The notes under the pieces are model-generated. The model saw only the letters and a list, made by a program, of their open reading frames with translations, was not told where the DNA came from and made no database searches. A DNA stretch of 64,000 nucleotides, taken from NCBI RefSeq assembly GCF_900104745.1, contig NZ_LT629732.1:5939981-6003980 (forward strand), in the 5' to 3' direction. A program made the position numbers and the translations under genes. The DNA is from Actinopolymorpha singaporensis. Lineage in GTDB: Bacteria; Actinomycetota; Actinomycetes; Propionibacteriales; Actinopolymorphaceae. This document shows positions 11,080 through 13,943 of the stretch, piece by piece (positions within the stretch are counted from its first letter, which is position 1; every line of letters begins with the position of its first letter).

Positions 11080-11348
11080 ATGCGCACACTGTCCGAACAG
11101 GTCGTCGTGGTCGCCGGCGCGTCCAGCGGAATCGGCCGCGCCACCGCCGCCGAGTTCGCCTCCGCGGGTGCACGTGTGGTGGCCGCCGCGCGTGGCCGCG
11201 AGGGCCTCGACTCGCTGGTGGAGGAGCACCCGGGGTCGGTCGTCGGCGTACCCACCGACGTCGCCGACCTGTCGTCGGTGACGGCGCCGACGTGGCGGTA
11301 AGCCTTTTCGGCCGCATCGACACGTCGGTGAACGTCGCCGCCGTCTGA
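11080..11348 (+). pseudogene. Short-chain dehydrogenase remnant (frameshifted and truncated)
   Basis: From ATG 11080 the frame encodes a normal SDR start: VVVAGASSGIGRATAAEFA (TGxxxGIG-like), then VVAAARGREGLDSL and PTDVADLSSVT. It hits a stop at 11299-11301 after 73 codons. The matching next SDR element, FGRIDTSVNVAAV, is in another frame (11310-11345) and is followed at once by TGA 11346-11348. The helix between them is shortened, and the catalytic Ser-Tyr-Lys part is gone. So there are at least one frameshift or small deletion and loss of about 60% of the gene. The break lies at the left edge of the proposed genomic-island scar. Confidence 0.8.
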
Positions 11349-11807
11349 ACACCGCGCCGAGTGACCGTCAGCTCGCGTGCGACCGCGTGGCGTCATGTCA
11401 ACTGGTGGTTGTCACTGTCCAGAACGGAGCCTGTAAGGCCGCGATGGCCGTTGTGGGCCAACTTCGCTCATCATGATCGATCCCGGTGTACGTGGTTAGA
11501 CCACGGTGCAGTAGCGTTCGGGCACCCGACCCGCTGGTCCACATCACTGCACCCGGCGTTCCCCCGTCGCTGGTGAGTGGTGACCTCCGTGTGGTCCAGC
11601 GGGTCGGGCTCAGCGCTGCGACTGCGCGGCTCACCTGAGCATCTGCTGTGGCTGGTCGTCCGTTCGAAGATGCACCGACGTCGCCCGATCGCCGTCAGCG
11701 AGTCCGACGAACCCGGTCTAGTCTTCCCGAAACCTCGACCGAGGCCACTGCCCTCCCAGTGGCGGCAACGGTGTGAGGAGAATCCGGCAGCGGCGTTGGG
11801 ATTTTCG
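11349..11807. other. Gene-free stretch at left edge of island scar
   Basis: About 460 bases with no convincing gene and visibly lower G+C than the flanks. It contains the first of two related 28-base elements (11493-11520). Short open frames on both strands here lack protein-like composition. Confidence 0.5.
11493..11520 (+). repeat. 28-base element, copy 1 (promoter-like)
   Basis: TGGT, ten variable bases, then TGCAGTAGCGTTCG. The same arrangement with identical spacing recurs at 12540-12567; the last 14 bases are identical and TGGT is identical. Both copies precede plus-strand genes. Confidence 0.6.
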
Positions 11808-12524
11808 ATGGACGGGGCAGACGGCCAACGGCTCGCGGAAGCGCTCGACGGGTTGACACATGCCCTGTGGAACCACGAGCCACCCGAGGCGTCCCTCGCC
11901 TGGCTGACCAGGGCCGCCGTGACGGCAGTGCCCGGCGCTGTGGCAGCCGGTATCACGCTGCGCGACCAGAAGGGCGCGCTGGAAAGTTTCGCGGTCACCG
12001 CGGACTTCGTGATGGAAGTGGACGCGGTGCAGTACCGCTCCGGCGAGGGCCCCTGCGTCGCGTCGCTGCGCCATGGGCCGGTTCACCTGGTCAACGACAT
12101 GGCCGCTGATCCGCGCTGGCCGACGTTCGCTCCCGCGGCGGTGGCCCTGGGCGTCGGCGGCATGCTGTCGGCGCACATGTTCGCCTGGGACGGCATGGCC
12201 GGCTCCCTGAACTTCTACGCCGACCGCTCGGACGCCTTCGCCACAGGCGCGGAAGCCGTCGGGCTCATGTACGCGTCCCAGCTCGCCATGACGTACGCCC
12301 TCAGCCGGCAGTCGACTCGGCTGCGGGACGCGCTGGCCAGCCGGACCGAGATCGGCGCGGCGCTCGGGATCCTGATGGAACGCCACCACCTCACCAAGGA
12401 CCAGGCATTCGTCCTGCTGCGGAAGCGTTCACAGCACCACAACACCAAGTTGCGCGAGGTCGCCCGGCAGGTTGTTCGGGTGCAGCAGAGCGGGCGGGTG
12501 CCGGACTTCGGCGTGAACATCTGA
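11808..12524 (+). CDS. GAF and ANTAR domain-containing protein
   Basis: About 238 residues from ATG 11808. A GAF sensor domain (residues about 15-145, with FRSGEGPC-like YRSGEGPCVASLRHG and a GMLSAHMF strand) is followed by an ANTAR RNA-binding domain (about 165-225: RTEIGAALGILMERHHLTKDQAF). ANTAR proteins act as antiterminators by binding paired hexaloop RNA hairpins; the GAF ligand is unknown. The start is uncertain: the frame is open back to 11577, GAGGAG lies at 11775-11780, and TTG 11796 is another option. It lies inside the proposed tRNA-Ala island scar. Confidence 0.75.
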   Translation: MDGADGQRLAEALDGLTHALWNHEPPEASLAWLTRAAVTAVPGAVAAGITLRDQKGALESFAVTADFVMEVDAVQYRSGEGPCVASLRHGPVHLVNDMAADPRWPTFAPAAVALGVGGMLSAHMFAWDGMAGSLNFYADRSDAFATGAEAVGLMYASQLAMTYALSRQSTRLRDALASRTEIGAALGILMERHHLTKDQAFVLLRKRSQHHNTKLREVARQVVRVQQSGRVPDFGVNI

Positions 12525-12539
12525 CGTTCGGTGGATGAG

Positions 12540-12567
12540 TGGTCAACCCGGGCTGCAGTAGCGTTCG
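12540..12567 (+). repeat. 28-base element, copy 2 (promoter-like)
   Basis: TGGT, ten variable bases, then TGCAGTAGCGTTCG, matching copy 1 at 11493-11520. It ends 61 bases before the likely sulfotransferase start. Confidence 0.6.
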
Positions 12568-12628
12568 CGTGAGGCAGAATGCGCAGGTAGTGCGAGTGGA
12601 CTACCACAACCGGGGTAGCCGTGGGGAT

Positions 12629-13558
12629 GTGTCGGACTTTCGGCTTGTCTACATCGGGGGGCTGGGCCGCTCCGGCTCAACGGTGATCGAACGGCTCTTG
12701 GGTGAACTTCCCCAAGTCTGCTCTGTGGGTGAAGTGGCGCATCTGTGGCAGCGGATGTTGATCGATGGCGAAGCGTGCGGGTGCGGGGAGCCGTTCTTGC
12801 GGTGCGCGTTTTGGCGGGAGGTCGGCGAGGAGGCGTTCGGTGGGTGGTCCAGAGTCCGGCCATCGGACATTCTGCGACTGAAGGGATCGGTAGACCGGCT
12901 GCGCTTCCTACCGCGTCTCCTTCGGCGCGGCCTTCCGGCGGATCTTGCAGCGCGGGTGGATCGGTACACAGTGATGTACGACCGGCTGTACGCCGCGACG
13001 GCCCGGGTGGATGGAAGTCAGGTGGTCGTGGACGGCAGCAAACACGCGTCAATGGCTGCTTGCCTTAGCCATCGTTACGGCGCCGACGACCTGCGGATAG
13101 TGCACGTTGTCCGGGATCCGCGTGCAGTCGCCTACTCGTGGGCGAAACGGCGGGCCCGCCCAATGGCAACCGGCGTCAGCAAGGAAAGGGAGATGGCCCG
13201 GTACTCGCCCGGCCGCGCGGCCGTGCAGTGGAACGCGGAGAATACCGCTCTGACACTCCTTGCCCGCCGCGGGGTGCCGACCTTGCGTATCCGGTACGAG
13301 GACTTCGCGGCACGGCCGTGGGAGACTCTCGCCGAGATTTCCGGCTTCGCCGGCCTTGCTGACGAGGCGCCGTTGGGACCGAACCGTACTGCCGCTCTCT
13401 CCCCGACTCACGCTGTGTGCGGCAATCCCGCGTTGTGGCGCTCTGACCACATAACCGTCCGCGAGGACACCTCCTGGCGAAGCGAACTTGGTCTCCGCGA
13501 CCGCGCCCTCGTGTCCGTACTGACCGCACCAACCCGTCCCCTCTTCGGCTACCGATAG
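12629..13558 (+). CDS. Sulfotransferase family protein
   Basis: A PAPS-dependent sulfotransferase-fold protein of 309 residues. The 5'-phosphosulfate-binding loop is YIGGLGRSGSTVIERLL at residues about 7-24, and the 3'-phosphate-binding element is IVHVVRDPRAVAYSW at about 154. A Cys-rich patch (GEACGCGEPFLRCAFW) and a LRIRYEDFAARPWETL helix are typical of actinobacterial members. The acceptor is unknown. GTG 12629 puts the P-loop-like motif at the usual distance from the N-terminus; a longer frame from GTG 12539 is possible. Codon use is less GC-biased than in the surrounding housekeeping genes, consistent with horizontal acquisition. Confidence 0.8.
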   Translation: MSDFRLVYIGGLGRSGSTVIERLLGELPQVCSVGEVAHLWQRMLIDGEACGCGEPFLRCAFWREVGEEAFGGWSRVRPSDILRLKGSVDRLRFLPRLLRRGLPADLAARVDRYTVMYDRLYAATARVDGSQVVVDGSKHASMAACLSHRYGADDLRIVHVVRDPRAVAYSWAKRRARPMATGVSKEREMARYSPGRAAVQWNAENTALTLLARRGVPTLRIRYEDFAARPWETLAEISGFAGLADEAPLGPNRTAALSPTHAVCGNPALWRSDHITVREDTSWRSELGLRDRALVSVLTAPTRPLFGYR

Positions 13559-13647
13559 CCGATCAATCAGGCGAGAATCCTGGGCTTCTTTTGCCAACGG
13601 CGTTGCTGACAGGAAACCCGGACGACCATGGACGCCAGCCGACCGGG

Positions 13648-13815
13648 CGCACCGAGCGAGTCGAGCCCAGGAATCTCAACCGCAGCTTCATCAACCGCCG
13701 CGCGGTGGCTGGCGTGCGGGAGATCCGGCTGCATGACACTCGGCACACGTGTGGGTCGCTGTTGGCAGCTCTCGACGTGCATCCACCAGTGACGATGCCG
13801 ATTCTGAGGCATAGC
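13648..13815 (+). pseudogene. C-terminal fragment of a tyrosine recombinase (phage-type integrase)
   Basis: The frame reads VEPRNLNRSF, then GVREIRLHDTRHTCGSLLAA and ILRHS, which is the catalytic HxxR region of actinobacterial phage/ICE integrases. The N-terminal domains, the first catalytic Arg and the terminal Tyr are missing. After ILRHS the reading frame runs into the tRNA terminator hairpin. It sits 55 bases from tRNA-Ala and points toward it, the arrangement left by an integrative element that used the tRNA gene as its attachment site. Confidence 0.75.
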
Positions 13816-13825
13816 ACCGGGGGAG

Positions 13826-13861
13826 AAAAGAGGCCGGCCCCGATGCGGGAAACCGGCCTCT
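13826..13861 (-). terminator. Rho-independent terminator of tRNA-Ala
   Basis: On the minus strand AGAGGCCGG pairs with CCGGCCTCT (13853-13861 with 13829-13837) around a 15-nt loop, followed by TTTT-C. It begins 10 bases after the tRNA 3' end. Confidence 0.75.
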
Positions 13862-13870
13862 GACCTGCGG

Positions 13871-13943
13871 TGGAGCTGAGGGGATTCGAACCCCTGACCC
13901 CCTCCATGCCATGGAGGTGCGCTACCAACTGCGCTACAGCCCC
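13871..13943 (-). tRNA. tRNA-Ala(GGC)
   Basis: A 73-nt cloverleaf on the minus strand. The acceptor stem GGGGCTG pairs with CAGCTCC and includes the G3-U70 pair, the identity element for alanyl-tRNA synthetase. The anticodon stem is CCTCC/GGAGG with loop ATGGCAT, giving anticodon GGC. The T arm is AGGGGTTCGAATCCCCT. The discriminator is A, and CCA is not encoded (CCG follows). It is flanked downstream by an intrinsic terminator and an integrase fragment. Confidence 0.95.

Follow-up and report, generated by a model that had tools for sequence, protein, structure and literature searches.

Layout of the tRNA-Ala(GGC) locus

A stretch of 64,000 nucleotides (the window) from the genome of Actinopolymorpha singaporensis, which is assembled as one contig of 6,403,569 bases, was analysed around a tRNA-Ala(GGC) gene faced by a fragment of a tyrosine integrase. 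From left to right, the locus contains the following features.

11080-11348, plus strand: broken SDR gene (Pfam), with a 73-residue N-terminal fragment up to 11301 and then a frameshifted continuation recognized by eye
11808-12524, plus strand: GAF-ANTAR gene, chromosomal backbone (Pfam; in place in the sister species G001, G003 and G004)
12525-13824, no strand: variable GC-poor segment, the scar proper (sister genomes and GC content)
12569-13662, plus strand: block with the sulfotransferase gene, 89.6% identical in DNA to a copy lying elsewhere in G003 (sister-genome comparison)
12629-13558, plus strand: likely coding sequence of the sulfotransferase (PF13469; start chosen by the G003 reading frame)
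13627-13815, plus strand: C-terminal fragment of a tyrosine integrase with HDTRH and RHS (local HMM, blastn, alignment)
13829-13861, minus strand: hairpin directly 3' of tRNA-Ala, followed by UUUUCU (fold), a putative terminator
13869-13943, minus strand: tRNA-Ala(GGC) (ARAGORN; Rfam tRNA, 67.4 bits), the presumed attachment site, with its 3' end to the left, toward the integrase fragment

An earlier sequence-only reading of this DNA had named the same genes, and the identifications held. ARAGORN returned the tRNA, which alone reached the gathering score in an Rfam scan of 9000-16000. Pfam recognized the sulfotransferase (PF13469, E 1.9e-13), the GAF-ANTAR gene (PF03861, E 6.3e-20) and the SDR fragment (PF00106), residues 7-68 of the latter falling on profile positions 1-65 of 195, the N-terminal part.

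The integrase fragment and its relatives

The identification of an HDTRH-type integrase C terminus directed at the tRNA was weak in Pfam (PF00589, E 0.036, under the curated cut-off) and clear by two other routes. A local HMM, which is narrow and was built from 11 seed integrases including the window fragment itself, matched 13627-13815 with E 3e-25. The fragment was also 71% identical to an integrase fragment of the A. rutila-type genome (G003), with blastn giving 84% identity over 156 bp and placing the DNA homology at 13661-13816. HDTRH, RHS and the catalytic tyrosine are features of tyrosine integrases. The window fragment retains HDTRH and RHS, and both motifs are covered by its alignment with the G003 fragment and fuller relatives (the third full-length row of this alignment, L174, is in the wrong frame and is to be disregarded), while the catalytic tyrosine and all N-terminal parts are missing. 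With neither of these, the window integrase is not a functional site-specific recombinase.

The best full-length relative, 71% identical, lies on contig 70 of G014. There the integrase is followed by RepSA and, farther on, by an FtsK-type gene, an arrangement of the AICE type, and the contig terminates inside a tRNA-Ala-like 3' half, with the integrase at that end of the element. When the G014 integrase was used as query against 293 genomes of the order, three had matches at E≤1e-90: G014 itself, G240 (52%) and G273 (49%), and the integrases of the latter two both adjoin tRNA-Ala(TGC). Judged by its 71% identity to an integrase that neighbours RepSA and FtsK-type genes, the window integrase belongs to a type carried by AICEs. 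A passage in PMC3218068 describes AICEs with tyrosine integrases as mostly located in tRNA 3' ends. A literature search combining Actinopolymorpha with integrase found nothing. A Pfam scan of eight proteins encoded between 8.6 and 14.7 kb detected no AICE gene besides the integrase fragment, and neither a replication initiator nor an FtsK-type transfer gene was among the matches.

Position and orientation were compared with those of other integrases. The integrase domain of the window, on the plus strand, stops some 53 nt short of the tRNA-Ala(GGC) 3' end, toward which it is directed. We collected 124 tRNA-Ala 3' flanks, of which 120 were of scannable length; 13 had an integrase domain match, and these collapse to 10 distinct sites, as some genomes are present in several loci. 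Three of the 10 (G001 CGC, G240 and G273) had been selected for an integrase already known to be present, and the proportion should therefore not be taken as an unbiased frequency. Outside the window, the nine sites place the end of the domain about 120-161 nt from the tRNA, again in an orientation toward it. In the source genome itself, 7 of 45 tRNA genes have an integrase match within 450 nt, and these make five sites since Asp and Glu stand in the Phe cluster; the distances are 53 nt at Ala-GGC, 140 at Pro-CGG, 151 at Arg-CCT, 136 at Lys-CTT and 135 at Phe. The short spacing at Ala-GGC fits a deletion of about 100 nt that removed the tyrosine and the tail of the integrase. A genome-wide search with PF00589 gave 11 matches, one of them below the cut-off and none of them the window fragment; four of the 11 lie about 138-149 nt from a tRNA.

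Sister genomes delimit the scar

The locus was compared with those of three sister species of the genus Actinopolymorpha, G001, G003 and G004. Flank identity with the sisters is about 88-94%, as measured over four regions that exclude the ANTAR segment. The GAF-ANTAR gene and its upstream region (11362-12490) are in place in all three, at about 81-87% identity, and the gene is therefore chromosomal backbone and lies outside the scar. The scar proper is 12525-13824 only. The sequence-only reading had drawn 11302-13943 as one unit, which the conserved position of GAF-ANTAR and its leader contradicts; G001 and G004 have the same gene order at GAF-ANTAR without the integrase, the kind of pattern that this reading had itself named as refuting it. 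The main use of the corrected boundary is that GAF-ANTAR is not to be taken for acquired cargo.

Composition gives a similar picture. The GC content of 12525-13824 is 0.654, against a window mean of 0.719 (sd 0.022), and falls in the lowest 0.2% of segments of the same size. The lower GC content claimed for the whole island applies to this segment only: the ANTAR segment, at 0.679, is in the lowest 6% for its size, and the SDR segment (10985-11361), at 0.727, is not low.

Between the conserved flanks, each of the three sisters departs from the window over 12525-13824; the integrase fragment, though, is shared with G003. The gap in G001 and G004 gave no integrase match and holds a nucleotidyltransferase-like gene, 88% identical between the two. 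Matches to the G001 protein are found elsewhere in the source genome (80%) and in G003 (85%); none was found in the other 6 of the 10 genomes searched. In G003 the gap holds a luciferase-like gene, a methyltransferase-like gene and, at the same site, a longer fragment of the same integrase gene. The names nucleotidyltransferase-like, luciferase-like and methyltransferase-like were assigned by reading the sequences only. The source genome is closest to G003 in all five regions compared, and G001 and G004 are mutually closest in two of the five, a weak grouping.

The SDR scrap is a feature separate from the scar. Its segment is replaced by 2-12 nt in G003 and G004, and in G001 by about 470 nt that have no blastn match to the window. 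We also considered whether the scrap is a copy of a gene kept elsewhere and rejected this: at E≤1e-12 it matched only itself in nine genomes including its own (in G002, 150 of 191 first-look candidates were scored). An empty site with the tRNA joined to an intact SDR region, as the sequence-only reading had predicted, was not seen in seven family members, the sole SDR match being one of 43% in G002.

Two further structures were noted around GAF-ANTAR. A long hairpin in its leader (11525-11608) is conserved in four species; the segment 11500-11640 folds with z -4.84 (0 of 200 shuffles as stable) and has no Rfam match, and covariation is weak: of 53 predicted pairs, 2 show a two-sided change (one belongs to the main hairpin), with a covariation term of +0.62. 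A 29-nt direct repeat (11492-11520 and 12539-12567; 79% identical, 14 nt exact) has one copy upstream of GAF-ANTAR, conserved in the sisters, and the other just ahead of the sulfotransferase block.

The sulfotransferase block

At E≤1e-20 the sulfotransferase has matches in 7 of 27 genomes, its own included. Orthologues occur in four of five congeners (G003, 89%; G001, 74%; G002, 64%; G005, 64%), with no match at that threshold in G004; in view of these orthologues, a newly imported foreign gene was rejected. The 18-19 kb regions fetched from those four congeners match window positions 9001-17000 at the sulfotransferase part only. In G003, the match to the block (12569-13662; 1.1 kb, 89.6% in DNA) stops where the integrase homology starts, at 13661.

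Stretches of about 120-1470 nt recur in the regions around the G003 and G001 sulfotransferase genes and at 1.66-1.70 Mb of the source genome (L086, L087, L090 and L091). They are 74-98% identical, some being multicopy, which suggests plastic, insertion-rich DNA.

Attachment sites

A second tRNA-Ala 3' end was sought with a 31-mer allowing three mismatches, which matched only the tRNA itself in the 64-kb window, and with a 45-nt search of 40 kb, in which the best other match was 26/45 as compared with 25/45 for the top match outside the tRNA in every one of seven loci from relatives. The absence of a duplicated tRNA 3' end, already remarked on in the sequence-only reading, was confirmed, and the attL copy that it had predicted did not appear in either search. 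Partial, att-like copies of tRNA-Ala(GGC), 40-47 nt long, were found in G019, G027, G014 and G025, which belong to another family of the order; their start coincides with the 3' end of the tRNA or is shifted by one base. tRNA-Ala(GGC) is a used site in these relatives. A copy at tRNA-Ala(CGC) in G002 shows near-identity for 25 nt beyond the 3' end, and no second copy was found within 15 kb of the G240 tRNA.

The hairpin 3' of the tRNA

The hairpin at 13829-13861 has a folding energy of -25.7 kcal/mol and is moderately distinct from shuffled sequence (z -2.21; 5 of 200 shuffles as stable); a scan for consensus terminators did not report it. It is common to G001, G003 and G004, of which G001 and G004 have no integrase fragment. 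The same type of hairpin occurs at tRNA-Ala(CGC) both with and without an integrase, and similar ones stand at elements in other tRNAs (at Pro-CGG in the source genome; also in G014 and in G019). Were the hairpin host sequence, an element inserting simply at the 3' end of the tRNA would be expected to push it away from the gene. In other genomes, similar hairpins stand at both the near and the far att copies: by eye, a hairpin accompanies four of six far copies and is missing from a fifth, while the sixth is truncated where the locus ends. The hairpin at tRNA-Ala may be of host or of element origin.

The exact 13-mer GGCCTCTGACCTG occurs within 40 nt 3' of 2 of the 45 tRNA genes of the source genome, both with integrase remnants; a third genomic copy has no tRNA inside its 3-kb locus, and across 27 genomes many matches lie away from tRNAs.

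The motif CAGGTCAG or its complement was counted separately (own-genome loci L221-L264; G009 loci L265-L316). Within 60-70 nt on the 3' side, it accompanies 10 of the 45 tRNA genes here (with the copy at 13860-13868) and 7 of 61 in G009; the corresponding counts for 5' flanks are 1/45 and 0/61. The motif tends to coincide with an adjacent integrase, present at 4 of the 10 own-genome genes with the motif as compared with 3 of 35 without it (one-sided Fisher p 0.034), and 2 of 7 as compared with 3 of 54 in G009 (p 0.096).

Origin of the scar

The integrase fragment is probably the remnant of an AICE-type, tRNA-Ala-specific tyrosine integrase, left by an element that integrated at tRNA-Ala(GGC) and later decayed. 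This is supported by homologues that adjoin tRNA-Ala, including one within an AICE-type element, by the orientation of the fragment and by the near-constant distance elsewhere; a further point in its favour is G003, in which a longer piece of this gene occupies the corresponding site with different neighbours. Against it stand the lack of a second att copy in the searches described, the hairpin in sisters that have no fragment, the failure of Pfam alone to call the fragment and the absence of other AICE genes among the scanned proteins. Integration at the tRNA 3' end would have taken place in or before the common ancestor with A. rutila, and the body of the element and its far att copy would have been lost afterwards. 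In the source genome, a deletion would also have taken the integrase C terminus, including the catalytic tyrosine. The sulfotransferase block, which lies elsewhere in A. rutila, abuts the remnant. The decayed, tRNA-directed element proposed in the sequence-only reading therefore stands for the integrase, by homology, orientation and distance, and falls for the extent of the island, as GAF-ANTAR is backbone, the SDR scrap is separate and the sulfotransferase has orthologues elsewhere.

A broader reading, which we consider unlikely, is that genes native to the genus are swapped at the tRNA-Ala(GGC) flank: integrase elements would relocate host genes as well as import others, and the hairpin with CAGGTCAG would be a terminus of the element, persisting after loss of the integrase. 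Its basis is that different species hold different genes between one shared backbone gene and one shared hairpin (the nucleotidyltransferase-like gene, the sulfotransferase, or the luciferase-like and methyltransferase-like pair), the first two of which occur elsewhere in sisters. If true, the tRNA site redistributes the genus's own genes.

It is improbable that no integration occurred here and that the fragment is a passenger of DNA blocks moved or recombined beside the tRNA terminator. The presence of the hairpin next to the tRNA in species that have no fragment would suit such a history, and the sulfotransferase block and the nucleotidyltransferase-like gene, found elsewhere in sisters, show that DNA changes place; however, the orientation, distance pattern and tRNA-Ala association are as in fuller copies, and the G003 fragment occupies the same place beside other neighbours. 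That one decayed island ran from the SDR gene to the tRNA, with GAF-ANTAR and the sulfotransferase as cargo, is highly improbable: the pieces are contiguous and 12525-13824 is GC-poor, but all three sisters have GAF-ANTAR in position, two of them with no integrase match in the gap, the GC content of the SDR segment is normal and four of five congeners have the sulfotransferase elsewhere, and the idea could be revived only if four species had inherited GAF-ANTAR from one ancestral island.

We conclude that decayed integration accounts best for the locus: a tRNA-Ala site in repeated use keeps an integrase remnant, whose neighbours differ from lineage to lineage. It is a genuine, ordinary integrase scar, smaller than first described, and a further case of a decayed insertion at a tRNA hot spot.

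Comparison with known systems

The locus resembles AICEs of the pSAM2 type in that its integrase is kin to one beside RepSA and FtsK-type genes, lies on the 3' side of a tRNA and is directed at it. Unlike them, the window holds a C-terminal fragment only, and neither an att repeat nor any gene for replication, transfer or excision was identified. With tRNA-anchored island remnants it has in common the tRNA, the integrase remnant, a gene content that varies among relatives and a lower GC content; it differs from them in having no direct repeat and in carrying a sulfotransferase that is known elsewhere in the genus and is not clearly foreign.
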